Shown here one piece after another: positions 33,351-58,600 of a stretch of DNA of 64,000 bases. The position numbers were made by a program, and so were the translations under genes. Source of the DNA: Candidatus Omnitrophota bacterium. GTDB taxonomy: Bacteria; Omnitrophota; Omnitrophia; Omnitrophales; Aquincolibacteriaceae. The stretch covers positions 73,950-137,949 of the forward strand of contig JAUYMS010000035.1 in the NCBI GenBank assembly GCA_030698625.1, given 5' to 3'. Within the stretch, counting starts at the first letter, position 1. Every line of letters begins with the position of its first letter. The notes below the pieces were generated by a model. That model saw only the letters and a list, made by a program, of their open reading frames with translations, ran no database searches and was not told where the DNA came from.

Positions 33351-33353
33351 TCT

Positions 33354-35294: not shown

Positions 35295-35307
35295 AGAGAG
35301 TGCTGCG

Positions 35308-35724
35308 ATGACAGAGATTCCAGAAGGCGATAAAAAAAGGAAGATTCTTATTGTTGATGACGAAGAACAATTCGGACTCATGGTCAAGAAAAACCTCGAA
35401 AGAGCGGGAAATTTCGACGTGCGCGTGGAAACGCAGGGCAGCAAAGGGCTCGCCGCCGCACGGGAGTTCAGTCCGGATCTTATCCTTCTTGACATGCTCA
35501 TGCCTGATTTAAGCGGGCCCGAAGTTGCCCGCCTTCTCTGGAAAGACCCTCTTCTTAAAGAAGTTCCCATTCTTTTTCTAACCGCGGTGGTCCGCAAGGG
35601 AGAGACTGAGACGTTCACCGAGATTCCGGGATCCAAGGAACCTTTCCATGCCAAGCCCTGCCTGGCCAAACCCGTGCGGACCGCAGAACTGATCAGCGCT
35701 ATCGAAAAGGTTATCGCAGAGTGA
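35308..35724 (+). CDS. Single-domain response regulator
   Basis: 138 aa from the ATG at 35308, the first start that begins just before the receiver; the frame continues upstream to 35020 inside the kinase gene, with no homology. Receiver features: IVDDEEQ, Asp in LILLDMLMPD, Thr in LFLTAVV and Lys in LAKPV. It is a tandem paralogue of the next gene, which it overlaps by 4 bases. There is no output domain. Confidence 0.86.
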   Translation: MTEIPEGDKKRKILIVDDEEQFGLMVKKNLERAGNFDVRVETQGSKGLAAAREFSPDLILLDMLMPDLSGPEVARLLWKDPLLKEVPILFLTAVVRKGETETFTEIPGSKEPFHAKPCLAKPVRTAELISAIEKVIAE

Positions 35725-36418: not shown

Positions 36419-39400
36419 ATGCGGACTATGGCTAAGCCCTATCTCTATCGTGCGATCGCCGTACTCGTTGCGACGACGTTTTTAGTGTCGGATCTTACGC
36501 TGCCCGCGTACGCGCAGGAGACGATCGGGGCGCCTTCTTTGGAGACAATCCCCGCCGATCTTTCATCCATTGACGTCCCTGTCGATTTAGGCACGGTTGA
36601 AGATTCCTTTCAGGGGAATACCGGTAAAGTTGTTGTGCTCATACAGGATGCCCACTCGATTCCCGATGCGCAGCGAAGTGTCCGGGAACTTATTAACCAT
36701 TTTCAATCACGGTACGGCGTTTCGTTGGTCGCTGTCGAAGGCGCTGCCTCCCGGCTCGATGCCCAATTATTTAAGAGTTTCCCCGACCAGCAGTTGCTCA
36801 AGGAAGTCATTTCCGAATACCACGCTGAAGGAGAAATTGCCGCAGGTACAGAAGCGGCGCTGTTTAACGAAACAGCGGCTGTTTATCACGGAATCGAAGA
36901 CTGGGATCTCTACGAAGAGGGACTTGCGCATTACCTCCGCACGACCGAACTGCAGGCTCAAATTACCGCAAGTCTTGAAACCCGCCGCGAGGTTCTGGAA
37001 GCAGAAAAGGAAAAAGTTTATTCCGAAGAGCTCCTCGGCATCGACCGGATTCTGCAGGGATTTTACGCCAATGACAGCGACTTGCTCGAACTCGTGCAAG
37101 CGCTGGCGCACTACCTGAAACCCGATTCCGATACGGAAGTGGCCCTTCTTTTGGCAAACAGTGAACGCGATCCCGACGGTGCGGTTTCCCTTGAGGATGA
37201 AGTCGAAGACATGGCCTGGCGTATCAAGACGGAATTGGCCGCGCTTGACGCAGCCGGGGACCTCAAGGCCCTCAACCGGAAAAGCCAAACCTTCTTTACC
37301 TCAGAAATCAATGCCGAACAGATGGCCCTTTTTCTCGATGAGATGTCGGCCAAGCACGGGCTGAGTTTTAAAGCCTCGCCGGTGATGCGCCGGCTCATGC
37401 AACGGCATCGCCGCCTGCGCGATCTTAGCGGAAGCCGCTTTTTCGAAGAGCTCAATCGATACATCGGGGATGTCAAAGAATCCGTATTTCGCACGGATGC
37501 CGAACGCGGCTTGGACGGCGAATTCGAAAATTTGAGGTTACTTTTCAAGCTCTCGAAGCTTGAAGTGAGTTTTGATGAGTGGCAGAAGTTGGGTGCGAAT
37601 GATGCCGTTCCTCAGGAACTAAAATCCCTTTTTGAATCGCACCGCGCTTTTTACGAAAACTCCGAGTCTCGTGACGATGCCTTTCTCGGCAATCTCACGA
37701 AGCTCATGAAACACCACGATGCGGCCGTCCTCGTGGCCGGCGGTTTCCATACCGACGGCCTGACCCAAAGATTCCGCCGGCACAATATCTCTTACTTGCT
37801 CCTCGCTCCGCGTATTCCTTCGATTCCGGAAAAATCAAGATACCAAGAGCAAATGCAGGGAGAGGTCAGCTGGAAGGATTATTTCAGGGCCGAGGACGGC
37901 CGTATCAATCTTTACGAGGCCTTCGCACGGGCAACCCGTGACCGACTGTTGGAGCGAACCACGGCAGGTTCTCGCGCAGAAACCCTCAAGCTCTGGCGCG
38001 ATGAAATCATCCGTGATTTGGCCGCGCGCGGTGAGGTTGAGAGAGCGGGCGAACATACGCGGCTGTTGGACGAAGTCAATGAGGCACAGGCAGCCGGGAA
38101 TGAGTGGCAAGAGAAGTGGATGGCCAATATCAACGGTTTTTTCAAAGGCCTGGAGCGCTTGCAGATCAACGGCGAAATGAATCAGGCCAATGTGCTAAAG
38201 CTCCTGCAGCCGGCGAACATGATAGCGGCCCGCACCGGCCCGGCCCAGTTGAGTTTGGGCAATCCGGGCCTTGCGATTTTTGCCGCGCCGCTTACCGCGA
38301 TCGATCGATCCGAGTTAAGAAATGAAGATGGGATGCCGGAGCCGATGCAAAGAGTCCTCGCGGACGCGGCAGGCAAGATAAACCGGACTGCCGCCATCGA
38401 CGACGAAGTGCTGAAGAAATACAGCAGGTCGCGTGAGGGTATGCGCATGAGCATTTTCAGGCAGGCGCTGGCGGATCTCGTGACTGCGGGTTACTTCGAG
38501 GGTACGGAGTTTCCTTTTCTTCTCTCCGGCCTCGTCAATAATACCCAAAAGGAATTCCAATTTTTTTCCAAACGGATTCGGGACAGTGCATCCCTGCGGG
38601 AAGTTATGACCCGGCTCTGGCAAATACACCGCAAATACAGTCGTTTTGTCGATGACGTGAACGAACGCATTCTGGCTCAGGCCCCGATCGGAGAAGATGG
38701 AAAAGTTCTGGGGCTTGTGATGCAGGTCATCGAGGAGCAAAATGACGAACAAACGAACCCGCTCTATTCCCGGCCCGACGGATTCATCATTCTCAACCTG
38801 GCGGCTCTCATCGACAGCGCGCGTGATGTGTACGGAAACGAATCCGTCGCCCACGAGGCCGGGCACGGCATGGCCCATTTGATCGATAATGTACCGTCAA
38901 ACCTTCCGGAGCACTTGGAGCTCGCAGCCAATTGGGCTGCGGCGCAATTCGCGGGAGTCGAGGCGATGGCCGCTTATGCGAACCAGGTCTTGGACGCGCA
39001 CATTCGTTCGAGCGGCGCAGATCGCGTTTATCCCTATTTTGCTACGCCGATTCTGGTCTTTGCCGAAGAGGCAGGCATTCGGCTGGAACGAGAGGATGTG
39101 GCCAGGAAGAATGCGGACAAGAGCCGTATCGAGGCCTACCGTCAATACTACCGGAGCCTCGCGTGGAAAGCGAGCCGTTCGGGTTCCGAGCGCTCCGAAC
39201 TTAGGGCCGGTACGAGCTTTTGGAAGTCAAAACGTTTATGGGTCAGCGCTGTCTCAGCCGGACTTTTGGCATTTGCACTATGGAGGTCAATACCGCCGGG
39301 AGAGGCGCCGCAGCTTGAAGCTCCTCAGGCAGAACCCCGCCAAGAGCAGGTCGTTGCAGAAGACCCGCCGGTCTCCGTAGCGCCGGCAGTGGAACCCGCT

Positions 39401-42400
39401 CCGCAGGAAGCAACCAAAGAGGAACCCGTTGTTGAACTCCCTGCGCCCGTCGCGGTGGTCCCGGCCGAAGAAGCTCCGGCGCCCGGCGAATTGACCGATG
39501 ATGAAAAGAGGGTCATCGAAATCGCGCGCCGCCACGGAATTGAAATTACTCCCGAAGAATATCGTGAAATGATTCAAATTCTAAAGGCGAGCCAATCGCG
39601 TGACATCGATTACCGCGTTAGCCACGAAGCGGCATTGCCTGCGGCACAGCACTTGATTCCCGGGGCGGCTCAGATATTTGGTGAAGGCGAAGGATTGTCC
39701 CTTACGGGGGATGAGGCGTTAAGCGCCGAGGATTGGGTGGCGAAAGCCATTGTGCCCTGGATGATGATTTATGGCGTGGACTACCACGAAGATTCCTGGC
39801 AGCAACGGGAGTTTATGGATTCTCTGCGCTATGCCCAGCCGATTACTCAAAAGGCACTCACCGATATGGTCAATGCGGGCCAGATCACTAAAGATGACGA
39901 GCTTCCGGATCTTTGGCGCGGGCTCGGCTTTTTGAATGTGCTCGACGACGATGAATGGGTTGTGCTAGACAATGAGTGGAGTAAGGTCCCGCGAGTGAAA
40001 TTCAAGAGCTATATGGGTTTTCTCATGATGACGGCTCTTTTGGAATACCAGCATCGCGTGGTTGAGCAATGGGGATACCCCGAGCTCTTTCCGCGCGGCC
40101 CCGAACACTGGTATCTGCCGCAGAATTTTTATAGCGAACTAGTCTTTTCGTTGAATAATGAAAACTTCGACCTCATGAAAGCGCGGATATTCGAGCGCAG
40201 GATCTCGGAACAATTCACCCGTATCTATTTCATGAATATGCATCGCGATATATGGCACGACCTCTATGTGCCCGCTGAAATCAGGCTGCGGGGTCAGTTG
40301 CGGGAAGCTTACCCTCACCTCGCCCTCCGGATGGCCGGCGACCCGGAGAGCCAATGGCGTGTTAACTCGCTGTCGGACAAAGAGGTCTCCCGTTCTATTT
40401 TCTTTCAGGTCTTATCCGAGCGTTCATTTTGGCCGGAAGGTGCAACCACGATTCGTGAAGTCATTGAGAGTGATATCTTTCAGCGGACTATCGACCGTCT
40501 CCTAACCCTGCGCAGCGAAGGTCTCATCGCCGATTACTATGCTCCGGGCAATCCGCCCGAGATGCGCCAGATACTGGCGAATCTTCAGGCGGGCCGATAC
40601 GCCGTCCTTGTGGAGTCCGGCCTGACAGGGAAAATCAGGGATATGGATAGAATTGAGGCTGACTACATTCTCGGAATCGATTTTGCGAACACCTTGCCGC
40701 TTGATGCTATTCGCCTCCGGGCGACAGCCGAGAGAAACAATAGTATTACCGAACCTGATGATTATGATGTTCGTCAGCGGCTGTTACGTGATCTTGCCGT
40801 GGAGACGGCCTTTGGCCTGGATTTCGGCGCGCACTACACGGGCGCGCGTGAGATGGCGGAAAACGAATTCGATATGGAAGCCCTCCGGGCTCTTTATGAC
40901 CAGCGGACCGACATCGAGCCCGAACTCGAGATGTTCTGGGGCCGCGACCTCAACCGCAACGGCCGTCATGATTCCGGGGTAATCAACGGCAGTAACGGGG
41001 CGCGCAGGCGCCTCGAAATTCCCATGAAGTATTGGGAACTGATCCTCATTCTTTCTTCTGTTCCTGAGGGAGAAGACCTGAATCTCCGTCCGGATATTCA
41101 ACGGCATGTCCGCGAACTCTTTTCGGCTATGACGCATCACCCGATGTGGGAACAGGAATTCAACTTTGATGATGAACGGACCGGTTCGGTTCAGGTCGGT
41201 GCCGTCATCGGAACGACGACAAACCTTTTAATTGACGGGTGGGAAGACCCCGCGGCGAGACTGCAGGCGCTCGCGACGATCTTCCGGGATCCGGCGACGC
41301 ATCCCGTGGTTGATAGCGTAGGTGATCCGGTGATGGTGGACGGTCAGGCGGTTGAGCGTACTCAGCGTGAGACGATCATACGCTATGGCGTGAGAATGCA
41401 TCACATGTGGCTCAATGAAGCCCGGCCCTCAGAGGCCCAGATGCAGGAAATTATTGCGAGTTTCGAGACAGACCCCCTGGCGATTCGAAAGTACGGCCCC
41501 GAAGTCATCGCTATGGCCGAACACTTTGCCAAGTCGACAACGGACTGGGAAACGACTCAGAGAGATCAGGAAAGAGTGACCGTTCGCCTGGAGTCCGGAG
41601 TGCAGGCGCGTTCGGAACTTAGGTCAATGGAAGAGATCTATGCCCGGACTTTGGAGGAATACGCCGCGGGCATTTACAAACTTGAAGACCGTATCTTTGA
41701 ATTGCGCGCCGACGAGGGAGTGGTCGACAGCGGAATTTCAGACCTGATTAATCTGCACATGGGACCGGATGTATTTCGGGATCCGTTAAAGCTCTTGATT
41801 CTGGATCACGCCCTGTGGCGTTTAGCCGAACCCGGCGCAATTCGCCCTGAAGTGATTATGCAGGCCATTACCATGAACGACAGCCCTGCTGACCAGTTGA
41901 AAAGGGCATTGCTCATCGATGTGCTCGGAAGATTTATGGGATTGAATCCCAAATATGACGGTTTTTTCAAAGGGGTGCCCGACATGATGCCGGAAAATGA
42001 GCCGGCTATGGCAGCCGCTCGGCGAGCCATTGAAAGGCAGGGAGGAGAGAAATTGATCGGAGAGCCGCCGAGCCGTAAAGATGACGAAGATTTTATGAAG
42101 GCGATCGCGGCACAGCATGTACCGATTCTGCCGAGAGCGACTCTCGAAAACGCACTCCTGCCCGTAACGGGCCCTGAAATCCTGGGCTTCATCTTTATAA
42201 ACGGGAATGGACAGGATAAAGAGGTCGAGCTTGAAGGCGTTAAGATCTCGACGAAATCCCTGCAAATGAGTAATCCGAGAACTGAGCATATGTTTCAGGT
42301 GCTGCGCCGCAGCGTCGCCGACAGCTCCAAGAACGGAGTGCCCGAGAGTTTTGAGAAGTCGGCACAGGTGCAGGCAATATTTGCGAGGCCCACCACCGAA

Positions 42401-45400
42401 GGGGCAGAAGCTACCCGAAGCTATCTACTGGGTTTTCGCGACAAAGACAATGTCATTTTATTTACGCAGCCCGATGATTTTCATGTTTCGCGTGATCAGC
42501 TGAGTGAAATCCTGGAGCAGAAAATCGAGGACGGACCCATTTCCCTCATCGCTCCGGTAAATTTTGAGAATGGCGCCGAATACAGTTTGACCTATCTTGT
42601 GAGTGAGGCTCGGCAGGACGGTGCGCGCGTACAAGGCGGTGTCGGATGGGTGGCCCCCCTTGCCGCATGGAAGAGCGAGGGGACGTTTCCGGCTTACGGG
42701 GATCTTAAGGCCCTGAAGACCCGATTAAAGGAATACCCTTGGAGTACCGATATTGGTGCCGTCATTATTGTGGATGATGAAATACAGATCGTAAAACGGC
42801 AGTTTCACCGATTGTCTTTGTTTCCCGTGCCGAGCGAACCCTCGCAGGAAGACGGCTGGAAACGTACGCGAATAGCGGTTTTAAACCGGCTTCGCCGCTG
42901 GGATGAACGGAGGCAGGTCCGCTTCTACAATCTCTACCGTGTTCCCTTTAAGTACAATGTGGGCGATCTGGAGCATGAACCCGGGACGGCCTTGGTTCTG
43001 GTGCCGGAGTGGAAAAGCCCGAAAGACGGCGTGTTGCGAAAAAAGACGCCGCCCAAACCGGCTCCGAATGATCTTAAACCGAAAGACGAAGATCCGGAGG
43101 TTGTCGCCGTTGGCACGCGAGGTGAGACATACAGCTCGGCGTGGGGTGATGGTGATGCGAGCACGCCCTGGAAACAGAAGAAGCGCTCGGAGCTACGAGT
43201 ACCGGATGACTTTGACGAGCTAGATCCCTGGCGGGATGAGCCCGAAGGGCCGCGGTATGAACCGCGTGACAAAGGAGCCGGATTATGGCTCGCATTGGGC
43301 GTGCCGTTTGTTTTCCTTGGGACTTTGGCAGCTTCACGGCTCGGGTTTGAACAGAGATTTGGATGGTCGGTTGGTATCGCTGCAGCGATCAGTCTTCTAT
43401 ACTGGGCCTTCGTCTCACTGATTTTTGAAAACGAAGCGCAGGGAAGGCGTCCGCTCTATGATGGTATCAGGATTACCGACGATCATATGGCTCTTGAAGA
43501 GGTGACCGAATTGCCGCGGATGGAATTTTACCTGTCGGTGATTCAGTCTCAGCGGCCGGTCGGTGTCGTGATCGCGAGCGAACTGCAGATGCGCGAAATC
43601 CGGACCGATCACGTTTTGGGAATTTGGATCGACGGTACTTTGGTTTACGAACCCGGTCTCGACGGGGAGCTCAATCTCGTAACAAGTACTGCGCCCGATT
43701 TGGACCGGGAACGCATCGCGATGGATTGGGCGGCGCGTCATCGCCCGGCGAATACACAAGTTTCCATTACATACCAGAGACCACCGATCCAAAGCTCCCG
43801 GCAGAGGTCCGAGTTGCGCCTGACGAGGCGGAGTTTCTTTCCTGCTGCCGCTGCGGGTGCGGCTGCATTTTATGCGACGGTCACCGGAGCTTCCGCACAG
43901 GAAGCTAAATCACGAAATCCATTGCTTCAAGATCCCGATCTCCGCGAAATCTATACGAATACCTACAAAAGCCTGGTTGAGCTCCGCGCCCCGAACGGGA
44001 TGCCTTACAACCAAACCCCGCGCGCGATCAAGCCTCTGGAAGGCTGGTTTAAATCGGCCGACGTCGGGTTTATGTGGATGGCCGATATTATTGCCGCAAT
44101 AAATCACAAGGACCATCCCATTGTGGGCCACTCCTCGCCCGAAGCCGTCAAGGAGCGAATCCGGAAATCCATTAAACAATACAGGCAGTTGGTGAGGGAC
44201 CACGGCCTTAAGATCAAGCACCCTAAGACGAATGCAGAAATTAACTCCGGAATTATTCCCGAAGTGATCGAAAATAAGCAGGGCGAGCTCTATACCTTGA
44301 AACAGGAAATCCCCGGGCAGGATGAGATTGCACAGGCAGACCGCGAAAAAGGCTATGTTTATGCGGCCTATGACATGATGATTCTGACGGAGCGCTTAAT
44401 GCGTCTGGCCGAGATCTTTAAGGTGGGAGCCAATATCGTGCCCGAGTTGGAGGACGGCGAGATCGCGCGCATTGCCGCTGAGTTGGTTGCCGGTACGAAC
44501 TACGGCGCCTTCCTCGACGGCAATGACAATTTCCACTCTCAGGTATTTGTTCCGCAGGACGGCACACGGAAGGGGCAGCATATCCGCAGTAAATGGAAGA
44601 TCGATAACAAACACACCGAAGCCAAGATGATGTTGCCTCTGATCAGGATGGGAATGATTGCTCAACCGGGTCAGGATTTGGGCAACCGCATCGCCGAGGG
44701 GAATCGTATCTGGGAAAAGATGTTCTTCCGCTGGGAGCCGCGCCGGGTCGGCGATGAGACGCTCTATATATTAGAAGGCGACGGAGAACGAAGTGCCTTC
44801 ACCGAGTATTTCGGCAATCTCTTCTACGATGAAGCTGAGGATTCTCCCCATACGGAGGGCCTTAGCCACGGAAATTATTATCGCATTGCTGAGCATGCCG
44901 GTCGGGCGCGCGGGCATGAAGTTTTCACGACGGCACCCGGCATCGGGGCCGATCGCAAATACCATCAGATGGGCCTAAATGCTTTCACCTCCATTGTGGT
45001 AGTTGGCCCTGCCTTAGCACTCACTACGGGCAGCCAGGCGGCAATCAACAACTTTAAGAAGTTGTTTGCTCTCGGGAAGCAATGGGGCTCTTATGTGGCC
45101 GGTTGGGGGTTCGCCGATGCCGTTGATCCCACGACAGGTGTGGCGGTTGATCCCAAACGCCTATTGATGAACCAGGCCTTGATCCTGGAGTCATTGAATT
45201 ACCCGATTCTGCGTGAACTGGAAAAGCGCATGCCGTGGTATCAGGATGTGGCGCGTATGCGCCGTCAGTTGGATCACGATAACCCGCTGCCGGAGCGCGA
45301 ACCCGTCTTTCGCGTCAATGTGCCGTCCCGGTATTATCCGCGTTATGAACGTGCGCGGGGATTCCCGCGCGCCTCGGTCAACCGCTTATCGCGTGTCGTC

Positions 45401-48400
45401 ATCAGCCGCGTACAGGACGAAATTGATGCGCCTTTCAACTCTACGAATAAAGAGCATGTCCTTGCCCTGATGAAGTATTTCCACATGACCGTGGCCAATG
45501 TCTTTTCACCGGCTGTGGAGGCAACCGACGACGGTCTCCTTAATTACTGGGCAGGGCTTAAAAAATCACCGGCGGAACTCGTCGAACATTTTTTCTGGTG
45601 GTGGCAGGTCCGAGAGCTCGCTAACCATTATGGTGTGAAACTCGCGGAAATCGGCGATATCGGTTATTGGAATACACGTGCGATCGAAGCCCAATCCCTG
45701 AAGTTTGCTATCGATGAGTTCAAGCAAAAAGGGACACGGAATCGCTCGGAACTTCGGCAGGTTGTTGCCGCTGAAGAGCCTGAGTTTATTGAATTTGGCG
45801 ACGCTGATTCTTTGGTGGCCGACATCATTTTTAAGAGGGAAGAGCCGGTGCCCGGCGAAGAGACTCAAGTCATCAACCTTTTCATATTATCGGATTCGCA
45901 AATGCAGATCGGGAAGGAGGGGATCGTCGGTGCAAAGAGCAAAGACGGAACGGTTACACTCAAATACCGCGTGCAATACCGGAGCCAGCCGCGAGGAGCC
46001 TGGGACACAGGGGGTGAAATCGGTCTTGTTTTCTCAACTACAGACGGAACCTTAAGCGGCATTGATCCTCTGGATTTTCATGAACACAAACGGGGATTTG
46101 AGGGGGTTTCGGATGCCCTTGAGCTGTGGCTGAAGAGTCAATTCGATCAGAAACTGAATCGTGACAACGCGGCCCTGTTTCCGCGTCAGGTAGAGACTGT
46201 TGCCCTGGTTGCGGAGGAGAAACCTGCGGACCCCCTGGCCGGCACCATCTCTCTGGCACTCGAAAATATTGCGCGTTCTGATTTTAACGGTGTTGCGGAA
46301 GCTTTAAGCAAAGTCCCTGCCGTTGCGGCACAGGCACGCGAAGGCAATGGCGATACGAACGCGGCGATCAACCACGCTTATGAAGTCATTCTTAATGCCA
46401 TCGATCAGTTTCGAATGACTCATGATGTTTCACGCCTTATCGAGATCGCTTTCGACATCGAATCCAATGTCCCTTATAAGACCATTAATTTTGAATCTGT
46501 CAAACAGCTGCGCTTAAAAATTGACGGTCGGGCGAGATGGTTAGCGGAATCCGATGCGGATGACCTGGCGGAATACGTTCGCTTTCTCATAGCCCTCGAT
46601 ACGAGGGATAAGGAAGGCCCCCGGAAACAGCCCCTACAGATTTCCGCGCGGCCTGCGTTAATTGCTGCGGAGCGTTATGTGGCGCAGCGCATTCCGGGCG
46701 CCGCACAACCGCTGGCCGATTATGTGGAGCAACTTATCGAACAGCGCGTTCACCGCGGGCCTTATCGCAATGCCCTTCTTTTTGACCTTATTGGAATCTA
46801 CTTCGGCATGGCGGGAAAATATCCGTATGTCGGCCAGGAGGCATTAGGCGAGGCGGCGCTCATTAAGGGCCTTTCGCTTATCAAAGACAATGGACTGAGT
46901 GAAGAGGCTCGGCCACGCGCTAATCAGGCATTTAATGCCTATTTCAGGACGATCATTCAGCACAAGTTAAAAATACGCGATCAAGCGGGCGCGGTTAATG
47001 TTGCACTTCGGGCTGCTGTACTGCAGAAAGCCCACAGCGACCTCATCAGCGAAAGACAGGTTGAGAATGCACAACGCCTCGTGGAACAGCGCCCAGAGCA
47101 ACCCAGGCATGAACCGCGCGAGCAAAGGCCGGAACCGCCGGCTCAGGCCAGGCCGGAGGAGCCGCGTGAAAAAGCAGCAGCAAAAAGTACGGCTCAGACA
47201 GCCCCTCAGGTGGCGACCCGCATCAAGAAGCGTTTGGAACGGGCGATTGCTCAAGGAAAGATCGATTCACGGGCCGAGCTTGAGAAACTCTTAAAAGCAG
47301 AATCCGAAACGGCTAAGCGTGACCATAGCGTCGACTTTGATCTCGGAGACAAGGATCTCGTGAAGTTGCACCGTTTTACCGAAAAGGTCATCAAAGGTAA
47401 GAATGGATTAGTGGAGTTAATTCAAGCCCAGCGTGCGAGGTTCAAAAGCGCAGAGCCTGCGGCGGAAGCCGAAAAGACCGACGGTAACAAGAAGCGTAAA
47501 GAAAGAAAAAGTAAGAGGCCAAGCAAGGCCAGGGACGAAACAGCGGTTGCGTCGGCTGCCGAGAGTTCGAGCAAGGCCTCCGGCGCTTGGGAGAAGCATA
47601 TTACCGCATTAAAAAATGCGTTGAGGGATGAGCGCGCCGACCTGGTCCGCCAAGCCCTGCTTATGCTCGTTCCGAAATGGCGCAAACGGAAATACAAATT
47701 TGGCAACCGCGAACATCAAAGTCTTATGGAACAAGCGGTTGCCAAATACGGCAACCCGGAGGATAAGGAACCTGAAGATCCGCGCATTAAACGCTCTGAA
47801 CTGCGGGTTGGCGATCCTCGAGAGCTGCTGGCGAATCTGCTTCAGCATCAGCTTGGGACGGTTATCGGAGCGATGACAGAGGCGGTTGGAAATTTGACCG
47901 ACGATGCGGGTGAACCGGATAAGAATCTCGAAGCCGTGCTCCGGCTAACAGCTATTTTAGACCAATTCATGGCGGCTTTTGGTCCGGAAAAGCGGGGGTC
48001 GTTTTTCAGGGCCACTCACCCTCAGGGTCCCTTCCTCGCAACGCCGCATACGATCGCGTTTGGTGAAGAATATGCCCGGCTCAGCCAGGCGGATCCGGAA
48101 GGTAAAATCCTGACGGCCGATGAAGTGGCGGAACTCGATAGGAGCGCAAACTTTTCGCTGATTCATGACTCGTTTGTGCCTCTGCTGCCGCCGCTTGAAA
48201 AGTTTGTCGAGAAACTACGCCTCAAGCTGTCGACGACGCCTGCCGGTATCGACCCGGAAGATATTATTCAATTGCAGCGTGCGGTTAAGAACCTACAGCT
48301 CAGCGCTGAAGCTTTAATTGCCGATTTAGACACAGCAGCAGCGGCAGGCAGCGAAATCGCAGTCGCTCGCGAGCCGATTCTCATCGGCGTCGACGGCGAT

Positions 48401-50455
48401 CCGCGTCAGTTGATCGCAGACCTTCTCAAGCACAGTCTCAACAGTAAGCTGGGGACGGTTACGATGCAGGTCGACTTGCTGGCCGAAGACGTGGAGTTTC
48501 CCGACTCGCCGCGCAAAGACGCGACACGCTTGGAAACCATGCAGGGGGCACTCGCTGAAGCCGCGCGTTTCCTGAAGGCCTTCTTCCCCGGAGCGGGCAT
48601 CCCGATCTTTCAAGCTGATTACCAAGGAGCTCCCATTATTGTGACCGCTGAAACAGATTCCTATACGACAGAATACGCGGAATTAGCTGCACGGGGGGAT
48701 GAACAGCGCATCCTCTCTCCCGGCAGGGTGGCTCAGTTGGCACGGGTGGCGGAATTTACTTATATCTTCGGACGGCTCATGCCTTCCGTTCTGGAAGTCG
48801 AAACTTACTTTGAAATTCTCCTCATACGGTTGGAAACTGCCGGGGAGTTGTCTGCGTCTGAGGTTCAAGCGGTTGTTCTGGAAGCCCAAGAACTTCAGGG
48901 AATCATGCAAGAGGTTGTGCGACGGTTGAGGCAGCAAGGTGCCGAAGCGGTTCCTGTTGAAGGCGATGTTATGGATGAATCGCAGGCGGACCGGTCCGAG
49001 CTTAGAGCCGTAGATTATCAGGGTAAGGATCCGAAGGAACTGGCGGCTAATTTATTGGACTATCAAGTCGAAAAATATATCCACGAGATGCGGGAAAAGG
49101 GAGATCGCTACGATGCTTCGGACCTCGAAGCCGAAGACTATCTCAAACAGCTTTTTGAGAATGCGAATCAAGCCCTGGTTTTCCTGTCGGCCTTTGATTC
49201 GACAGGCCGGGGTCCTTTCTTTATGACGACGCACGAGGACCAGCCCTTTTTGGTGACCCCTAAGACCGCCGGGTTCGAGGCCGAAGGGCGGCGAGTAGCT
49301 TATTCGGTAGGAGAAGAGAAGAAGAGATTACTGACAGCGGGCGAGATGGCAGATCTGGATAGGCAAGTCGGGTTTGATTCCGTTCGCATAGAAATCGATA
49401 AGCCGTTCACGGAGCTTACAACTTATATCCGGCAGTTGCGGGACAAATTTTCCGGCACTCGGACGCTGGCGCCTGAAGACAGGCAAGAAATTGAAGCAAG
49501 ACTTGAGCACATCAAGACCGCATTGCAAAAGGTCACGGGAAAACTTAGGAGCGCTGAGCGCTCGGAACTGCGCAGTGCGGCGGCGGGCATTGCATTGCTC
49601 CTAAGGCCGCGCGAATTGGGTCAACGTCTGGCGGCGGTGGCGTTGCAACCCGAAGAGATCGCGGCATTGTCGCGGCGTTATGCCGAATCGATTGGTGTCG
49701 CCGCATTGGCGGAAGTCGTCTATGAATCAGCGCGGAGCCTCTCGGCGGTCGTTCGCAATCAAGATCCTGCAGATGACGATCTTGCGGTCCGGCAGCGCAA
49801 TCAGGAGACCATCCTTACCGTAGTGGCGGATATCGCGCGTGAGCTTTACGCCGAGACGGTTGCGGAACAAAATACGCTTATTTCCGAAATCCATTATGGA
49901 GCTCCGCTCGCGATTGCTATTGACGAAGATGGCGCGGTGATCGGATTCCCGGTTAAAGTACCCGCCGGTACTCTGGCGCGCTCGCTCGGCAGATTCTCTG
50001 AATCCCTTTTACAGAAGGTTCACTATGTTACGTACTATCAGGTGCCGGACATCTTGAGGCAGGTGGGTGTGGCCACCAAGCGGGTCGCTCCCGGCGGCAG
50101 AATTAAAGGGGAAGTCAGTTTAATCGGAGATGCCGCCGTGTCGAGTCCGTCTGTTTGGCAGATGACGGTCGCCGATGATGTGCGGGCCGAAGATATTGAT
50201 CCTTTCACAGCCGAGCTCCTGCTGGATATGATGGTGCTCGTCGGTGCTCTCGTGCACTACGGGCCGAAAGGCGAACAGATCCGTACTGCGGCTGATCCCG
50301 TCAAAGAACTCCTCGAACTCTACCCGGGCCTCAAGCCCATTCTCAATCAACGGGATATCGCGTACCAAGAGATCAACGGAAAGCCCTCCATCGCATTTGC
50401 GGTGCAAGCACTGCAGGACAAACTGGCCGACAAGGCCTTCGCCGTTTCCGCATAA
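36419..50455 (+). CDS. Giant multidomain RSELR protein 2 (4,678 aa)
   Basis: Start ATG at 36419 with GGAGG 12 bases upstream; a Sec signal peptide ends AYA/Q at residue 32. Order: TraB/Tiki-like domain (70-490; IQDAH His79, VEGA Glu107, GGFH His444); RSELR 630; zincin module with HEAGH 812-816; RSELR 925, then a membrane anchor (940-955) and a Pro/Glu-rich linker; a large unrecognised domain (1010-1730); RSELR 1731 and an unrecognised domain; RSELR 2256 with two membrane helices; RSELR 2463 followed by a Tat signal peptide and a glycosidase-like domain (2490-3105); RSELR 3109, then helical and Arg/Pro/Glu-rich sequence; RSELR 3792, 4192 and 4381 bracketing three related helical repeats; a final unrecognised domain. 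Much looks extracytoplasmic. The single open frame is clear; the role is unknown. Confidence 0.92.
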   Translation: MRTMAKPYLYRAIAVLVATTFLVSDLTLPAYAQETIGAPSLETIPADLSSIDVPVDLGTVEDSFQGNTGKVVVLIQDAHSIPDAQRSVRELINHFQSRYGVSLVAVEGAASRLDAQLFKSFPDQQLLKEVISEYHAEGEIAAGTEAALFNETAAVYHGIEDWDLYEEGLAHYLRTTELQAQITASLETRREVLEAEKEKVYSEELLGIDRILQGFYANDSDLLELVQALAHYLKPDSDTEVALLLANSERDPDGAVSLEDEVEDMAWRIKTELAALDAAGDLKALNRKSQTFFTSEINAEQMALFLDEMSAKHGLSFKASPVMRRLMQRHRRLRDLSGSRFFEELNRYIGDVKESVFRTDAERGLDGEFENLRLLFKLSKLEVSFDEWQKLGANDAVPQELKSLFESHRAFYENSESRDDAFLGNLTKLMKHHDAAVLVAGGFHTDGLTQRFRRHNISYLLLAPRIPSIPEKSRYQEQMQGEVSWKDYFRAEDGRINLYEAFARATRDRLLERTTAGSRAETLKLWRDEIIRDLAARGEVERAGEHTRLLDEVNEAQAAGNEWQEKWMANINGFFKGLERLQINGEMNQANVLKLLQPANMIAARTGPAQLSLGNPGLAIFAAPLTAIDRSELRNEDGMPEPMQRVLADAAGKINRTAAIDDEVLKKYSRSREGMRMSIFRQALADLVTAGYFEGTEFPFLLSGLVNNTQKEFQFFSKRIRDSASLREVMTRLWQIHRKYSRFVDDVNERILAQAPIGEDGKVLGLVMQVIEEQNDEQTNPLYSRPDGFIILNLAALIDSARDVYGNESVAHEAGHGMAHLIDNVPSNLPEHLELAANWAAAQFAGVEAMAAYANQVLDAHIRSSGADRVYPYFATPILVFAEEAGIRLEREDVARKNADKSRIEAYRQYYRSLAWKASRSGSERSELRAGTSFWKSKRLWVSAVSAGLLAFALWRSIPPGEAPQLEAPQAEPRQEQVVAEDPPVSVAPAVEPAPQEATKEEPVVELPAPVAVVPAEEAPAPGELTDDEKRVIEIARRHGIEITPEEYREMIQILKASQSRDIDYRVSHEAALPAAQHLIPGAAQIFGEGEGLSLTGDEALSAEDWVAKAIVPWMMIYGVDYHEDSWQQREFMDSLRYAQPITQKALTDMVNAGQITKDDELPDLWRGLGFLNVLDDDEWVVLDNEWSKVPRVKFKSYMGFLMMTALLEYQHRVVEQWGYPELFPRGPEHWYLPQNFYSELVFSLNNENFDLMKARIFERRISEQFTRIYFMNMHRDIWHDLYVPAEIRLRGQLREAYPHLALRMAGDPESQWRVNSLSDKEVSRSIFFQVLSERSFWPEGATTIREVIESDIFQRTIDRLLTLRSEGLIADYYAPGNPPEMRQILANLQAGRYAVLVESGLTGKIRDMDRIEADYILGIDFANTLPLDAIRLRATAERNNSITEPDDYDVRQRLLRDLAVETAFGLDFGAHYTGAREMAENEFDMEALRALYDQRTDIEPELEMFWGRDLNRNGRHDSGVINGSNGARRRLEIPMKYWELILILSSVPEGEDLNLRPDIQRHVRELFSAMTHHPMWEQEFNFDDERTGSVQVGAVIGTTTNLLIDGWEDPAARLQALATIFRDPATHPVVDSVGDPVMVDGQAVERTQRETIIRYGVRMHHMWLNEARPSEAQMQEIIASFETDPLAIRKYGPEVIAMAEHFAKSTTDWETTQRDQERVTVRLESGVQARSELRSMEEIYARTLEEYAAGIYKLEDRIFELRADEGVVDSGISDLINLHMGPDVFRDPLKLLILDHALWRLAEPGAIRPEVIMQAITMNDSPADQLKRALLIDVLGRFMGLNPKYDGFFKGVPDMMPENEPAMAAARRAIERQGGEKLIGEPPSRKDDEDFMKAIAAQHVPILPRATLENALLPVTGPEILGFIFINGNGQDKEVELEGVKISTKSLQMSNPRTEHMFQVLRRSVADSSKNGVPESFEKSAQVQAIFARPTTEGAEATRSYLLGFRDKDNVILFTQPDDFHVSRDQLSEILEQKIEDGPISLIAPVNFENGAEYSLTYLVSEARQDGARVQGGVGWVAPLAAWKSEGTFPAYGDLKALKTRLKEYPWSTDIGAVIIVDDEIQIVKRQFHRLSLFPVPSEPSQEDGWKRTRIAVLNRLRRWDERRQVRFYNLYRVPFKYNVGDLEHEPGTALVLVPEWKSPKDGVLRKKTPPKPAPNDLKPKDEDPEVVAVGTRGETYSSAWGDGDASTPWKQKKRSELRVPDDFDELDPWRDEPEGPRYEPRDKGAGLWLALGVPFVFLGTLAASRLGFEQRFGWSVGIAAAISLLYWAFVSLIFENEAQGRRPLYDGIRITDDHMALEEVTELPRMEFYLSVIQSQRPVGVVIASELQMREIRTDHVLGIWIDGTLVYEPGLDGELNLVTSTAPDLDRERIAMDWAARHRPANTQVSITYQRPPIQSSRQRSELRLTRRSFFPAAAAGAAAFYATVTGASAQEAKSRNPLLQDPDLREIYTNTYKSLVELRAPNGMPYNQTPRAIKPLEGWFKSADVGFMWMADIIAAINHKDHPIVGHSSPEAVKERIRKSIKQYRQLVRDHGLKIKHPKTNAEINSGIIPEVIENKQGELYTLKQEIPGQDEIAQADREKGYVYAAYDMMILTERLMRLAEIFKVGANIVPELEDGEIARIAAELVAGTNYGAFLDGNDNFHSQVFVPQDGTRKGQHIRSKWKIDNKHTEAKMMLPLIRMGMIAQPGQDLGNRIAEGNRIWEKMFFRWEPRRVGDETLYILEGDGERSAFTEYFGNLFYDEAEDSPHTEGLSHGNYYRIAEHAGRARGHEVFTTAPGIGADRKYHQMGLNAFTSIVVVGPALALTTGSQAAINNFKKLFALGKQWGSYVAGWGFADAVDPTTGVAVDPKRLLMNQALILESLNYPILRELEKRMPWYQDVARMRRQLDHDNPLPEREPVFRVNVPSRYYPRYERARGFPRASVNRLSRVVISRVQDEIDAPFNSTNKEHVLALMKYFHMTVANVFSPAVEATDDGLLNYWAGLKKSPAELVEHFFWWWQVRELANHYGVKLAEIGDIGYWNTRAIEAQSLKFAIDEFKQKGTRNRSELRQVVAAEEPEFIEFGDADSLVADIIFKREEPVPGEETQVINLFILSDSQMQIGKEGIVGAKSKDGTVTLKYRVQYRSQPRGAWDTGGEIGLVFSTTDGTLSGIDPLDFHEHKRGFEGVSDALELWLKSQFDQKLNRDNAALFPRQVETVALVAEEKPADPLAGTISLALENIARSDFNGVAEALSKVPAVAAQAREGNGDTNAAINHAYEVILNAIDQFRMTHDVSRLIEIAFDIESNVPYKTINFESVKQLRLKIDGRARWLAESDADDLAEYVRFLIALDTRDKEGPRKQPLQISARPALIAAERYVAQRIPGAAQPLADYVEQLIEQRVHRGPYRNALLFDLIGIYFGMAGKYPYVGQEALGEAALIKGLSLIKDNGLSEEARPRANQAFNAYFRTIIQHKLKIRDQAGAVNVALRAAVLQKAHSDLISERQVENAQRLVEQRPEQPRHEPREQRPEPPAQARPEEPREKAAAKSTAQTAPQVATRIKKRLERAIAQGKIDSRAELEKLLKAESETAKRDHSVDFDLGDKDLVKLHRFTEKVIKGKNGLVELIQAQRARFKSAEPAAEAEKTDGNKKRKERKSKRPSKARDETAVASAAESSSKASGAWEKHITALKNALRDERADLVRQALLMLVPKWRKRKYKFGNREHQSLMEQAVAKYGNPEDKEPEDPRIKRSELRVGDPRELLANLLQHQLGTVIGAMTEAVGNLTDDAGEPDKNLEAVLRLTAILDQFMAAFGPEKRGSFFRATHPQGPFLATPHTIAFGEEYARLSQADPEGKILTADEVAELDRSANFSLIHDSFVPLLPPLEKFVEKLRLKLSTTPAGIDPEDIIQLQRAVKNLQLSAEALIADLDTAAAAGSEIAVAREPILIGVDGDPRQLIADLLKHSLNSKLGTVTMQVDLLAEDVEFPDSPRKDATRLETMQGALAEAARFLKAFFPGAGIPIFQADYQGAPIIVTAETDSYTTEYAELAARGDEQRILSPGRVAQLARVAEFTYIFGRLMPSVLEVETYFEILLIRLETAGELSASEVQAVVLEAQELQGIMQEVVRRLRQQGAEAVPVEGDVMDESQADRSELRAVDYQGKDPKELAANLLDYQVEKYIHEMREKGDRYDASDLEAEDYLKQLFENANQALVFLSAFDSTGRGPFFMTTHEDQPFLVTPKTAGFEAEGRRVAYSVGEEKKRLLTAGEMADLDRQVGFDSVRIEIDKPFTELTTYIRQLRDKFSGTRTLAPEDRQEIEARLEHIKTALQKVTGKLRSAERSELRSAAAGIALLLRPRELGQRLAAVALQPEEIAALSRRYAESIGVAALAEVVYESARSLSAVVRNQDPADDDLAVRQRNQETILTVVADIARELYAETVAEQNTLISEIHYGAPLAIAIDEDGAVIGFPVKVPAGTLARSLGRFSESLLQKVHYVTYYQVPDILRQVGVATKRVAPGGRIKGEVSLIGDAAVSSPSVWQMTVADDVRAEDIDPFTAELLLDMMVLVGALVHYGPKGEQIRTAADPVKELLELYPGLKPILNQRDIAYQEINGKPSIAFAVQALQDKLADKAFAVSA
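38321..39190 (+). other. Zincin-like metalloprotease module (HEAGH)
   Basis: It lies between two RSELR copies. SVAHEAGHGMAHLID contains HExxH at residues 812-816, with two His and the catalytic Glu. A candidate third ligand is a Glu in the downstream FAEEAG helix. The module is about 290 residues and would be secreted if the N-terminal signal acts. The family is unassigned, so zinc peptidase activity is inferred from the motif only. Confidence 0.6.
43805..43898 (+). other. RSELR followed by internal Tat signal peptide
   Basis: RSELR (43805-43819) and then LTRRSFF (Arg2470-Arg2471), an alanine-rich hydrophobic core (PAAAAGAAAFYATVTG) and an AxA cleavage site ASA/Q. All three parts of a Tat leader are present, 2,470 residues from the N-terminus. 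Confidence 0.85.
43899..45742 (+). other. Alpha/alpha-barrel glycosidase-like module
   Basis: The roughly 610-residue domain after the Tat leader shows GWFKSADVGFMWMADIIAAI near its start and GHEVFTTAPGIG...YHQMGLNAFTSIVVVGPALAL later. These resemble DUF3131/GH144-like glucan hydrolases (S..dIG...l..laA, then an S..vv.P segment). Assignment is tentative. If right, it would act on cell-envelope or external glucans after Tat export. Confidence 0.4.
47807..49558 (+). repeat. Three tandem helical repeats (about 190 residues each)
   Basis: Repeats begin DPRELLANLL (about 47810), DPRQLIADLL (about 48395) and DPKELAANLL (about 49025). Each contains a middle segment like GPFLATPxTxxF...EYA and then ILTADEVAELDR. 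RSELR precedes the first and third and follows the third, but none separates the first from the second. The fold was not recognised; the amphipathic start is faintly like kinase dimerisation helices. Confidence 0.7.
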
Positions 50456-52617: not shown

Positions 52618-55600
52618 ATGCGAAAAAAATCCGCAATGGGAGAACTCTATATCTGGCGCAAGTTTGTGGCAACGTGTGTCACGGTATGTTTTATCTTTCT
52701 CGACGTTTCCGCTTACGCACCGGCCGTTTATGCCTCGCCGGTTCTTTCCACAGCCTCTTCGGCCTATCAGATTCCTTCCGAGTTTGGTGTCATCGAAGAT
52801 TCCTTTACGGGCACAAACGGGAAAACGGTGATTTACATTCAGGATGCGCATGACTCGCTTGAGGCACAGCAGAATATAGCGGCGATGATCGATCACCTGG
52901 TGGAGAAGCACAATGTCAGGACCGTCTTCGAAGAGGGTTATGAAGGGCCGGTTCCGACTGACGACTTCTTCGGCATTGTCGATGACACCGAGGTGCGCGA
53001 AAAGGTGGCCTTTTATCTTCTTGATGAACTCCGCATCGGGGGCGCCGAGTATGCCCACATCAACCGCCGGCAGGATTTTAAACTGATCGGTGCCGACAGT
53101 ATTCAACTGCACCTGGAAAACGTCAATTGGTACCATGAGACGGCCAAGCTCCAGGAAGAGACCGCCGAAGAGTTGGAAGCCATTCACAAGAAAATCAAAA
53201 ACCTGGCCCACCGCAGTTTCCCAAAGCGCCTCAAGACCTGGATGAAGTTTAAAGAACGCTATGACGACGGTAAGCTGGATCTCGCTGATTACCTCATGCG
53301 GACCCGGGCCCTACTCCCCGGATATAGCTATTCCCAGATTGATCTCTTGCTCGCGACCACTCGCGGTAAGGATCCCAAGTTATTGGAACGCGCCGGTGCG
53401 ATTGAGGCGCGAAGCCTCTTTCGCGAGATTGAAAACATGGAAGGGGATCTCTCAGACGCCTATCTTCAAGATGACCGGGATCAGAGGATCTTTGAGTACC
53501 ATCGCCTGCTCCAGCTTTTTAGCCGGCTCAACCGGATTGAAGTAACTCCCGTTGAGTATGCGGTCATACAAGAGTCGCTCAAAAAAATCAACACCCAGCA
53601 GTTTGCCGATTTTATCGTTAGCCATACAAACAAATCGGTCGTGCTTTCCAAGCGTTGGGAAAAAGCCATGGAAAATGCGCGCCGTTTCTACACCATTGCC
53701 GGTGAGCGTGACCAAGCCATAGCTGCCCGCCTCGGAGAGTTCCTCAAGCAACCCGATGAAAATGTTGCGGTTCTCGTCTTCGGTGGTTTTCACAAAGATG
53801 CCATCAAAGAGATCCTTCGCAAAGAGGGCACGTCCTACCACATCGTGGCCCCTAAAATTTCCCGCCTCCAAGATAAACACAGAGAGCAGTATAAGCAATT
53901 GATGTCGGCGGGTTACCAGCCGATCCGTACTTCGTCGGGATTGAATACGGCCGCGCGAGTTCTCGGCGATATGTTAAAAGCCACGCGCAATCAGCAACAG
54001 GCCGAGGTCTTGAGGTCCGAACTTCGAACCATTGCGGACGTGGTTGCAACGATCAATGCCAAAAAATCAGCCGGCCTCTTCCCGTCCTCGCCGTTGCTTT
54101 TCAATCGCGAGATCGGAAAACAACTGCGCGGCGGCGGGGATCGCTCGGAGTTAAGAACCGCAAGCCAATACAACCGCCGGAGCCTGGGGGTCTACGAAGG
54201 GGCTGAGGCTTGGGACAACCTTCTGAAAAAGTTTGTTGATTATGTGAAGCCTAATGAACTCACCGGCTTTGTGCTCATGACGCGGGCAGACTATGAGAGC
54301 AAACGCAAGGACGATGACGTGCAGCCCGCCGAGTTCGTCTCGCTGACGGGTGGCCGAGAGGCCTTTTTTACCGCCTATCAGGGCGGCTTAAAGCAGGAAC
54401 TGGCAGAGGAAGTGCCGGCGCTGCTTAACCCGAATACCCGCTATGAACTTATTCGTGTTTCTCCCAAAAAGGGCGTTGATGCGGACGAGGCGATGAATCC
54501 CTTTCTGGTCATCATCTACGAAGCGGCAGAGCAGCCGGATCGTTCGGAATTGCGTATGGAAACCGCTCGGCCGGGCGATAACCGGGAAAACGGAAACGGA
54601 GAAAAGAACGGAGACGGCGTGAGGGGTGCTTTTCGCCGCATCATGCGAATCACGGCAACACTGGTGCCGGGCCAGGGTATCGGAAAACGTGTGATCGTTG
54701 CGGTGGCGATTGTGGTGTCGAATATCGGAATCGATGTACCCGTTAATCTGCTTTTGAAGCCCGCTATCGTTCTCGGCGTAACCGGCCTATTCGCATTTTT
54801 CGGCGGAAGCCTCATGGCGATCGTTGGTGCCGTTACGGGTGTCCTCTTGACTCTCGTAATCGGCGGAGTCGTACGCACGGTTTATTACCTCGCACTGAAA
54901 GCGGCATTTTTCAGCATTAGCCTTGTCGTGAACAGTGCGATACGGATGCTCAATCTCAGCCCGAGATTCGATCTCCCGCGCTTTGACTGGCTGGATCACC
55001 GTATGATCCGCTTCGACGGAACGACGATGCGCGCTACGTTCATTCCTTATGGGGCCGGAAATTTTTCACCGATACTTTTTCTCGACAAAAAACTCAAGTT
55101 GCAGTCGCTGCATTATTTTGCGGACGTGTACGATACCTCGAGGCGGATCGAGGACACTGTCGCCCGCTTCTCGGGTGCGACACCGAGCGCCGCCGAACAG
55201 GTGCGAAAGAATTCGGTCTCCATTGCCGCGGCTCTTTACGCGACGCAGCTGGAATTAGAGACGTATGATTATCACCGTTTCAAGATCCGGGGATTGCACG
55301 GCTATAAGAAAAAACAGTTGCGCCGCTGGATTAGCCGTATTCGGGAGTCTAAGACATGGTGGGGCTGGGTGCAGTCCTTTTTTGCGTTGCGCTGGCTGAA
55401 AGCTTTTATATTTGAAAAGATTGTCGGCATCAAGCTGCTTGGCCCCAATGTCGGCTCACGGCCGATTCTCCTGCTCGACACGGCCGAACGCTTCGGTGAA
55501 GTCGTCTCGGACCTGAAGAGTGCCGCAGAACGGGGCAAGGTGGAGGTGGCGTCCTTGGCGCGGGTTTACCAGTTTGATGTGACCGAATTCGGAAAAGTCG

Positions 55601-58600
55601 CCGCAGAGCGCGCGCTCGAGGGGACGGCGCTCGCGCCGGAAGAGATCCGCACACGGTTCATCAAGCCGCTGATTAGCGAGGAAGAGATTGCGGAGCTTGG
55701 CGGTCCCGAGCGCTCTGAGCTCCGGGCGATTTCGGACGATGAAGAGATTGGCAATACCTACCGTGCGAAGTTGAAGGAAACACCGTACTTCCCGGTGATG
55801 CCGCGCGGTAAAGGTGCCAGATTCGCTGAAGTGGATGACGATGTAAGGCGGCTTATGCCGCTCAAGAACGAAATCGGAAGACATTTTTTTGCGCTCATGC
55901 TCATGTTTCCGGCGCCGAATCCGGACACGCTGGAATGGGTTTGGTATGACAATGTCATTCCGGAAGACGGTCAGGCATACACCTTTTCGAATGTGCTGGA
56001 ATACCATCGCCTGGCCCGGGTCGGTGAAGACCCAGAACAGCACCTCGAAGAATATGACTTTGTCTTCGCCATCCAGTTCGGCCATCTGAAGATCATGGTG
56101 ATGAATCCCATGACGGGACAAGCGTTGGATTCGGTGGATGCGCGCGAACTTGCGGCTAAGACTCCGCAAGGTGAAGAGTTTCTCGAATGGTACTCGCAGA
56201 TCCGGCGCCCGAAACTACTCCGCGATATTCTCTCACCTCCCAGGAGGCGCTATCGGTCCCGTGGGGATGATCGCTCTGAGCTTAGAGCGCTTCAGGAGGA
56301 TTTCATTGAACAGGTGATCAAGCCGGTTTCGAGATTAATCCCCGATGATGTGACGGTGCAGTCCGTAACGGGAGACGGAGGGGAGCAGGTGCTTACACTC
56401 CGGCACCAGATGGAATACCGCGGCGAGACAATCACCTTTGACTACCGGATTGAATTTGACGGCGATGACGTGGCGGCGCCGTCAAGGCCCTCGCTATTTG
56501 ACACCAATGTGATTCGCGTTCCCGCCGATGGGTGGGACGAGGATATCGTCACGGATGCACAGAACGCTTGGCGGAGGATGACGATTGCCGACCCGCGGCT
56601 TTATCCGCGTTGGAATCGAGATGTTTTTGAGTTGGAGAAGTATCAAAAAGAAGCGGTCTCGAAAACCTTGGATTCCCTGTTGGAGAGAGGGCAGGCACTG
56701 ACGGTTATGGCAACGGCGACGGGTAAGACCGTTGTGGGTTTTGAAACGATGAACCGCTTTTTGGCCGAGCGGCGCGCAGCCGCAGCGGGGGATGAGCGGG
56801 GAGCCGTTCTCTTCATCGTCGACAATGTGCGCATTCTCAAAGAAGCCGAAGAGAAACTTCATGACATGTTCGATAAAAAGGATGCCGACGGTAGCGTGAT
56901 CGAACAGAAGTTTACGAGCAGTCAGGTTTTTGAGGGGCATGAAGACTACTCGGGGGACGTTATTTTTGCGACCACGTCATCGCTTATGTCGGGGCGGTTG
57001 GAAAGTATCATGGCGAGTCGTAAGATCTCGCTGGCGATCTTCGACGAAGTCCATCATATGCCTGCGATGGAAAGCCGCACGCTTCATGACAAGCTCAGAA
57101 CACAGAGCCTCAACACCGGCTGGAATACGGTCTATCTCGGATTAACCGCAACTGAAATTCGTCCCGATCGTCTCAGCGTGCTTTCCTTTTTCGGGCGGCG
57201 TATCGCCTATGAGTACTCCATCATTGACGCCTGGGAGGAGGGTTACCTCGCTCCCATTACCCGAGTCACGGCCGATGACGATATCCTGCAGAGTATCGGG
57301 AGAACACCGGAAGACATCGGCCAAGTCGCCAGGAATTCACCGGAGGCACAGGCCTATCTTGCGATGCGCTATGATAAGCAACGCTTCGCATACTTGAAGC
57401 AGGTCTATGACGCGGTCACCAAGGATCAGTTGAATTCACAGACCCTCGTTATCGCACCCAACATCGAGAAGGCCCAGGAGTTGGCGGAATATTTCCAGGC
57501 AAAAGAAATCGATGCCGTGGCGCTTACGTCGGACGAGCAAATGAGCGACGATGAGCTGTTTGAATTTCAATACCTGGGATGGAAAAACGGGGAGTGGCCG
57601 GACGCCGTGCCGGTGCGTATCGGTAAGAAACCGACAAAGGCGGTCCCCGAAGCGGTTGTAGGAGTCCGCATTTTTCAAGAAGGTGTCGACGTCCCGGCCA
57701 TCCGCAACCTGATTCTCTGGGCAGATACCGATTCCGCGCTGCGTTTTACTCAGTGGTTAGGCCGGGGACTTCGCCCTGATCGTTTCAAGACTCATTTGAC
57801 GGTTGTGGATACCGTGGGGCTTTTCCGTAAGGCAAGCTTAATGCCCTATCTCGGCGGCTTGGCACGCGGACAGGCCCTGAAAAACAGAAAAAGAAAGAAA
57901 AAAGAAAAAGGCGAGAGAACTTCGGCGCCGCTTGACACAGAGATTATCGATGCCGTCGAGCTCGAGGGCCTGGTCATCCCGGGCGTTGATCTCGGGGCCG
58001 ACATCGATAAGACGGTCATGGACTACTTTTCTCAGGTCGGCGAACAGCTGGCAATGCGCTACCTCAGCTATGACCAGGTCCCGGAAAATGAATACTCGGG
58101 ATTGGACAAGTTTATTGCCAGGCGTGCCGGCTTCAGATCCGTGGAGGATTTGAAGCAGTTTCTGCGCGCAAAGGCAACGGGAATCAATACCAGCCGTGAG
58201 CGGCTTCGACCGGCATTTTTTAACGGAGCAACGTACCGCGAAGAAGACGGACCGGAGATCCGGCTGTCACCTTCGACGTTTATCATCTTTCAGCGGATCG
58301 GAAAACTCTTCCAGGAAGTCGTGCCTGAAACGGAGAGCGAACATCTCTACAAGATCTTTCCCGAGTTTAATCCCAAGAAATCCCGCATGATCTCAGACCG
58401 TGCGCGCAATATCGGAGTCGTGCGCACTCACATCTTCAACCGCAGCATTCAACGTATGAGCCAGGCACTCGTCGAAGAAGTCCTGGAGTCGGGAGCGGCG
58501 AGAGAAGACTTGGAGACGGAGATCTATCTCATCGGAGAAAGAGGCCTGCTTGAGGGGAATGAAATCGGTTCACTGGGGCTGCTCGCGGCTGAGCGCGGCG

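Follow-up and report, generated by a model that had tools for sequence, protein, structure and literature searches.

Three giant open reading frames in a 64,000-nucleotide stretch of an Omnitrophota genome (the window, meaning here the whole stretch that was analysed) begin with one homologous N-terminal domain and are partitioned by the recurrent pentapeptide RSELR. Together with its variants in other species (RSExR), this sequence marks the native ends of the modules that make up such giants. From modelled structures and motif order, the domain very probably belongs to the Tiki/ChaN/erythromycin-esterase fold superfamily as a divergent member, and we tentatively read the giants as polyproteins in which this built-in Tiki-fold domain would be a protease that cuts at RSExR.

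The source genome comprises 3.52 Mb in 50 contigs and encodes about 40 domain-bearing ORFs, the largest of 14,273 aa. Three of these giants lie wholly or partly in the window:

2..13234, + strand: giant protein P0003, an open frame that begins before the window
36419..50455, + strand: giant protein P0001, an open frame of 4678 aa with the N-terminal domain and nine RSELR
36419..36514, + strand: Sec-signal-like N-terminus of P0001 (MRTMAKPYLYRAIAVLVATTFLVSDLTLPAYA), assigned from its sequence and from a similar hydrophobic segment on sister ORFs
52618..63999, + strand: giant protein P0002, which runs past the window end and is a 9109-aa open frame in the genome

The open frame of P0003 continues upstream on the parent contig (G000:C50:73369 onward), where the protein starts just outside the window. 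Where domain-bearing ORFs of this genome contain their start, nearly all of them open with a Sec-signal-like hydrophobic segment. Ordinary genes lie close around the giants. Right at the P0001 stop begins an alpha/beta hydrolase ORF, with a GlpX-type fructose-1,6-bisphosphatase behind it (window 50453-52388), and a Tad/Flp pilus cluster (T2SSE, two T2SSF, ParA-like, RcpC/CpaB and TadE/G) occupies window positions 17963-25600 between P0003 and P0001. Also between the giants, the regions 13206-17117 and 26018-36284 encode many response regulators, PAS histidine kinases and adenylate/guanylate cyclase, and the first gene of the 13206-17117 group overlaps the end of P0003. Elsewhere in the genome, a 721-aa domain protein that carries no RSELR (G000:C7:10180-12342) adjoins a giant on the opposite strand; it could act in trans.

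Sequence comparison identified the N-terminal domain in P0001, P0002 and P0003, with the following positions and motifs:

36554..37876, + strand: N-terminal Tiki/ChaN-like domain of P0001 (residues 46-486), from family alignments, an AlphaFold model (pLDDT 90.1) and structure matches
36644-36655, + strand: QDAH of P0001, part of IQDAH (residues 75-79)
36647..36655, + strand: D77-A-H79 of P0001, predicted first active-site motif (H in 89/90 copies, D in 79/90)
36737..36742, + strand: E107-G108 of P0001, second motif (91/91)
36890..36898, + strand: G158-x-E160 of P0001 (G 93/93; E 86/93, D 7/93)
37649..37672, + strand: F411-Y412 ... R418 of P0001 (94/94, 93/94 and 94/94)
37739..37750, + strand: G441-G442-F443-H444 of P0001, last motif (GG[FYW]H in 94/94 profile matches)
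52729..53907, + strand: N-terminal domain of P0002, from an AlphaFold model (pLDDT 88.1) and structure matches
52840-52851, + strand: QDAH of P0002 (DAH 52843-52851)
52933-52935, + strand: E106 of P0002
53707-53709, + strand: R364 of P0002
53782-53793, + strand: GGFH of P0002
2..724, + strand: C-terminal half of the P0003 N-terminal domain, from a profile match to residues 4-241 (GGFH 548-559)

In a similarity search the P0002 copy was retrieved with an E value of 1.1e-16 and dozens of further copies with E values down to 1e-127; the resemblance among copies exceeds chance by far. In a set of 49 copies H79, E107, G108, G158, F411, Y412, R418, GGFH 441-444, P464 and Y475 were invariant. The counts listed above extend this to 94 non-redundant copies; the alignments behind them were anchored on GG[FYW]H, and this last motif was therefore counted separately, in the profile matches that extend to the C-terminal part of the domain. 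The domain was found in 122 of 237 sampled Omnitrophota genomes, and one copy occurred in an Elusimicrobia genome. A preceding sequence-only reading of this DNA had proposed that one domain is shared by all three giants, lies at 36640-37890 in P0001 and may define their family. Homology is confirmed for all three copies, of which only that of P0003 enters the window partway, the proposed bounds lie near the refined ones, and the domain heads not only these giants but some 40 ORFs of the genome. The His and Glu residues singled out by that reading are indeed conserved in orthologues, and its description of a GxxH-like motif suits the second His (GGFH) and has to be given up for the first, which belongs to D-A-H.

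AlphaFold gave models of high mean pLDDT (values above) for the P0001 domain and for the P0002 domain, which is 25% identical to it; the alignments behind the two models share most sequences, so that the models are not fully independent. A Foldseek search of the PDB with the P0001 model gave no significant match (best E 0.12). When the Foldseek candidates were aligned with VIA-align, the top five were HopBA1 (Z 9.3), EreC (8.8), ChaN (8.6), BcR135 (8.3) and EreC again (8.3), and the best unrelated chain after these scored 7.5. For the P0002 model, EreC (8.6 and 8.5), ChaN (8.2), BcR135 (7.5, 7.3 and 7.2) and HopBA1 (7.4) accounted for seven of the top eight; rank 1 was a Tetrahymena complex IV subunit (Z 8.7), which is not known to be a relative. 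The Z values of the superfamily matches thus stand only moderately, or just, above the unrelated background. The core common to this superfamily is a parallel beta-sheet with helices on its flanks, to which both models conform as judged by these matches, and the match to the Tiki superfamily that the sequence-only reading had anticipated was obtained with both.

Profile-to-sequence searches pointed in the same direction at lower strength. Among 384 Omnitrophota genomes the Pfam ChaN profile had eight matches, seven of them to this domain, with E values down to 7.7e-6. The best ChaN score on the domain (PF04187, 25.8 bits) lies below the curated cut-off of 27.7 bits, which is why the domain is not filed under that family; TraB_PrgY_gumN (PF01963) reached 22 bits on another copy (E 1.7e-4; cut-off 26.8 bits), and Erythro_esteras (PF05139) matched three of 26 members without significance (best E 0.051). 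Hence the suggested kinship to TraB and ChaN stands insofar as both profiles reach the domain, with scores under their curated cut-offs. In a viral library, a member of the TraB family came out best (E 0.09). Single domain copies searched against Pfam and NCBIfam yielded no confident family, and the family profile returned from the PDB sequences only coiled-coil noise, caused by the helical insert.

In the P0001 model H79, E107 and H444 lie where the predicted strands 26-32, 58-61 and 390-396 end, so that two His and one Glu occupy strand ends, like H3902, E3930 and H4030 of RRSP. RRSP is a Tiki-family endopeptidase with a 2His/2Glu set at E-x-H, E and H, and is metal-independent (PMC6254334); the sequence-only reading had described Tiki members as metal-dependent proteases. 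The motif order of the domain matches the RRSP set, with Asp in place of the first Glu: the counterpart of RRSP E3900 is Asp in 79 of 90 copies and otherwise Asn, Thr, Glu or Ser.

Could the domain lie outside the Tiki superfamily, resembling it only as any parallel beta-sheet with an inserted helical part would, and with His/Glu motifs that arose by coincidence? The Foldseek search without a significant PDB match would agree with this, as would Z values of about 8-9, near an aligner background in which an unrelated chain reaches 8.7. Nevertheless, out of all folds this one superfamily came up with two divergent models, the ChaN and TraB profiles of Pfam picked out the domain independently, and the conserved residues lie at core-strand ends in the expected order; we consider a generic fold very unlikely. 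We read the domain as a new family in the Tiki/ChaN/erythromycin-esterase superfamily, with the predicted active-site set D-x-H / E / Y...R / GGFH. This superfamily also holds esterases and haem-binding proteins, and fold membership would suit a protease, an esterase or a haem binder.

The separators of the three giants are located as follows:

38306..38320, + strand: first RSELR of P0001; further sites at 39191, 41609, 43184, 43805, 45743, 47792, 48992 and 49559
54013..54027, + strand: first RSELR of P0002; further sites within the window at 54142, 54541, 55711 and 56272
875..889, + strand: first RSELR of P0003; further sites at 5306, 5345, 8750, 11738, 12620 and 12746

These 21 sites in the window are encoded by many different synonymous codons; RSELR is therefore kept at the protein level, and a DNA repeat is ruled out. 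Counts for the whole genome were taken from sampled giant stretches and sampled control stretches. The former contained 285 RSELR in domain-bearing ORFs and two in other frames, and 400 kb of control DNA, including three long domain-less ORFs, contained none. Enrichment of about 100- to 700-fold over composition was measured for RSEVR, RSEMR, RSELR, RSEAR and RSETR in 33 giants from other species. RSExR was enriched genome-wide in 31 of 122 domain-positive and in 0 of 115 domain-negative genomes, as scored by matching the DNA to CGN-type RSE[VMLIF]R and requiring both a minimum of 25 matches and a threefold excess over the reversed-pattern control. These thresholds were set after the tables had been seen, and the genomes are related and do not represent 31 independent events. 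Twenty-four of the 31 belong to the family of the window's genome and the rest to four other families.

Domain-bearing giants of several genomes (G037, G007, G147, G196, G185, G080, G042 and the Elusimicrobia locus L099) are free of RSExR. Since RSExR is missing from domain-bearing giants of at least eight other genomes, the domain is not dedicated to it: either its role is wider than one site, or the site drifts with lineage. In other lineages the site is perhaps another sequence, such as G-x-SLG or ESAMSPE. A 7997-aa domain-bearing giant of another family (L206, G024) has G-[AGRS]-SLG about two dozen times in place of RSExR, perhaps as an alternative separator. A PGI-carrying ORF of at least 7463 aa (L215, G063) repeats ESAMSPEA; its N-terminus lies past the contig end, where a domain would not be visible.

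The residues around 283 sites of the window's genome show a graded and asymmetric preference. Position -2 is enriched fourfold in Pro and position -1 favours Asp and Gln; Ala, Ser or Thr directly follows RSELR at 165 of the 283 sites (58%; background about 21%), Asp or Glu comes next, and the preference fades by the fifth residue. Judged from sequence, a protease site cut after the last Arg would give such a profile, and a flexible acidic linker could be the source of part of it.

Of the homologous segments shared between giants, 46% start at a site (9.7% expected, s.d. 5.3) and 27% end at one (8.2% expected, s.d. 4.6), and few sites fall inside them. Stand-alone PGI extends from -268 to +282 around its GGRxS motif, and the sites flanking PGI in giants lie at -277/+278 (G076), -283/+285 (G048) and -296/+318 (G064); they are no more than about 10 residues away from the native ends in two genera, and about 40 in another. 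With 11,858 aa, the giant of G048 carries 31 sites in addition to the N-terminal domain, and its PGI is the only one found in this 96% complete genome. Most genomes of the window's family have PGI as a separate ORF of the transaldolase-PGI type (about 960 aa), and two giants of other families contain PGI without RSExR. In the window's genome, the native start of a UDP-glucose dehydrogenase is at module residue 4 and its native end about five residues before the next RSELR; its C-terminal half is duplicated, and stand-alone copies exist too. An RpiA module is complete (profile 6-217 of 218) and a NagB-like module nearly so, and most modules have no recognisable family. Single ORFs can thus contain several complete proteins, as shown by PGI, RpiA and UDP-glucose dehydrogenase, each of which lies whole between sites, and the same site recurs at protein boundaries.

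Several giants of the window's genome (for example on contigs C35, C43, C9, C41 and C7) have in common a homologous C-terminal module of about 300 aa that starts at RSELR. Some modules have a Tat-like signal right behind the site, for example behind RSELR at window positions 43805-43819 (LTRRSFFPAAAAGAAAFYATVTGASAQ, P0001 2463) and 11738-11752 (STTRREFLKQLAATPIALQ, P0003 3913), which is what exported proteins that were once separate should show. Overall, hydrophobic segments after sites are only slightly enriched (10.4% versus 6.9%), and the counts gave no support for modules that keep their start Met behind the site (11% versus 12.7% expected). In the 11858-aa ORF of G048 (L199-L200) some linkers resemble translated intergenic repeats (VIPAKAGIQLDPHLRGDD), which suggests that the giants grew by fusion of neighbouring genes. 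A zinc peptidase module (HExxH) was considered as a general cutter and ruled out, the motif being found in only 11 of 64 giants; P0001 has HEAGH about 200 residues past its first RSELR.

In the mechanism that we propose, the domain would follow a Sec-like signal at the head of a giant modular protein, in which complete proteins and unknown modules are joined by RSExR. The first site lies 61-280 residues past GGFH in most giants, and the first cut would for this reason free the domain itself; later cuts would free the modules, in cis or in trans. We think that RSExR is probably cleaved, and the indirect evidence that RSELR is cut is now much stronger than in the sequence-only reading, which had assigned the cutting to this domain; the domain also occurs in lineages free of RSExR. 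If cleavage does take place, we would give even weight to the built-in domain, the only module common to all giants, as the likely processing protease, cutting after the last Arg of RSExR and before a small residue. PGI, RpiA and UDP-glucose dehydrogenase normally reside in the cytosol, and a conflict exists between a domain whose sequence looks exported and modules some of which look cytosolic: either the enzymes act outside, or processing precedes the completion of export, or the N-terminus is not a working signal.

This conflict would be eased if the polyproteins were cut at RSExR by a separate Arg-directed protease and the domain served as an esterase, a haem or metal binder, an envelope anchor or the like, a reading that also accords with the RSExR-free lineages and with the presence of haem-binding ChaN and macrolide esterases in the superfamily. 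We hold it to be rather unlikely, given that no other module is common to all giants and that RSExR enrichment was seen only in domain-positive genomes. It is still less likely, in our view, that RSExR is a conserved linker, a docking epitope or a gene-fusion scar within giants that stay intact as secreted multi-domain proteins. The five exact residues are kept despite varying codons, for which a scar would give no cause as it would not be conserved; flanking preferences around the sites are graded; and complete enzymes and internal signal-like segments right behind sites would make little sense in an uncut chain. On the other side, linkers resembling former intergenic repeats fit recent gene fusion, and published work interprets the giants of Omnitrophota as surface or adhesion proteins that stay intact (PMC10066038; PMC12057145).

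Giant ORFs of Omnitrophota are already on record, read in the extracts available as adhesion or predation proteins (PMC10066038; PMC11573180; PMC12057145); these extracts make no mention of an N-terminal domain, RSExR, intact enzyme modules or polyproteins. The giants of Seymour et al. 2023 (PMC10066038) are of the same phylum and of the same kind, very long ORFs with few annotated domains. The open literature yielded no paper joining polyproteins and Omnitrophota; it did not cover the West-Roberts et al. giant-gene preprint, which may overlap.

Among known systems, the haem-binding uptake family ChaN (PF04187, Tiki superfamily) provides the nearest Pfam profile and shares with the domain the predicted core fold, the predicted export and the motif order (an x-x-H behind strand 1, an E behind strand 2 and a GGxH close to the end), whereas the domain scores below the curated cut-off, has a helical insert of about 270 residues and heads proteins of several thousand residues. 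EreC and BcR135 (PF05139) are among the best structural matches of both models and have a similar His/Glu active-site layout; unlike the domain, Ere enzymes are small stand-alone proteins that act on macrolides, and sequence similarity to them is not significant. TIKI/TraB/PrgY proteases and RRSP are peptide-cutting members of the superfamily with the 2His/2Glu set (PMC6254334); the domain differs from RRSP in having D-x-H in place of E-x-H, and the substrate of the candidate protease would be its own chain. Viral polyproteins and auto-processed proteins of the MARTX type likewise consist of a long chain of modules with a recurring cut-site-like sequence and a built-in candidate protease. The giants differ from these in belonging to a cellular bacterial genome with about 40 such ORFs, in having ordinary metabolic enzymes as modules and in the fold of the candidate protease, and their cleavage is inferred.

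Giant ORFs have been on record in Omnitrophota for some years, but neither a domain common to them nor a workable idea of their nature was available. With an enzyme-like head domain in common and a conserved separator, they become a polyprotein system that can be put to the test. Taken to its full extent, the polyprotein reading would mean that these bacteria make many of their proteins, metabolic enzymes included, as dozens of self-processing giants, each with its own Tiki-fold protease and with a site that drifts between species; we regard this as possible, if doubtful. If true, it would to our knowledge be the first case of large-scale polyprotein processing in a cellular bacterium, it would bring in a new family of proteases whose site is a simple run of five residues, and it would explain of what use proteins of 5,000-20,000 residues are to the organism.
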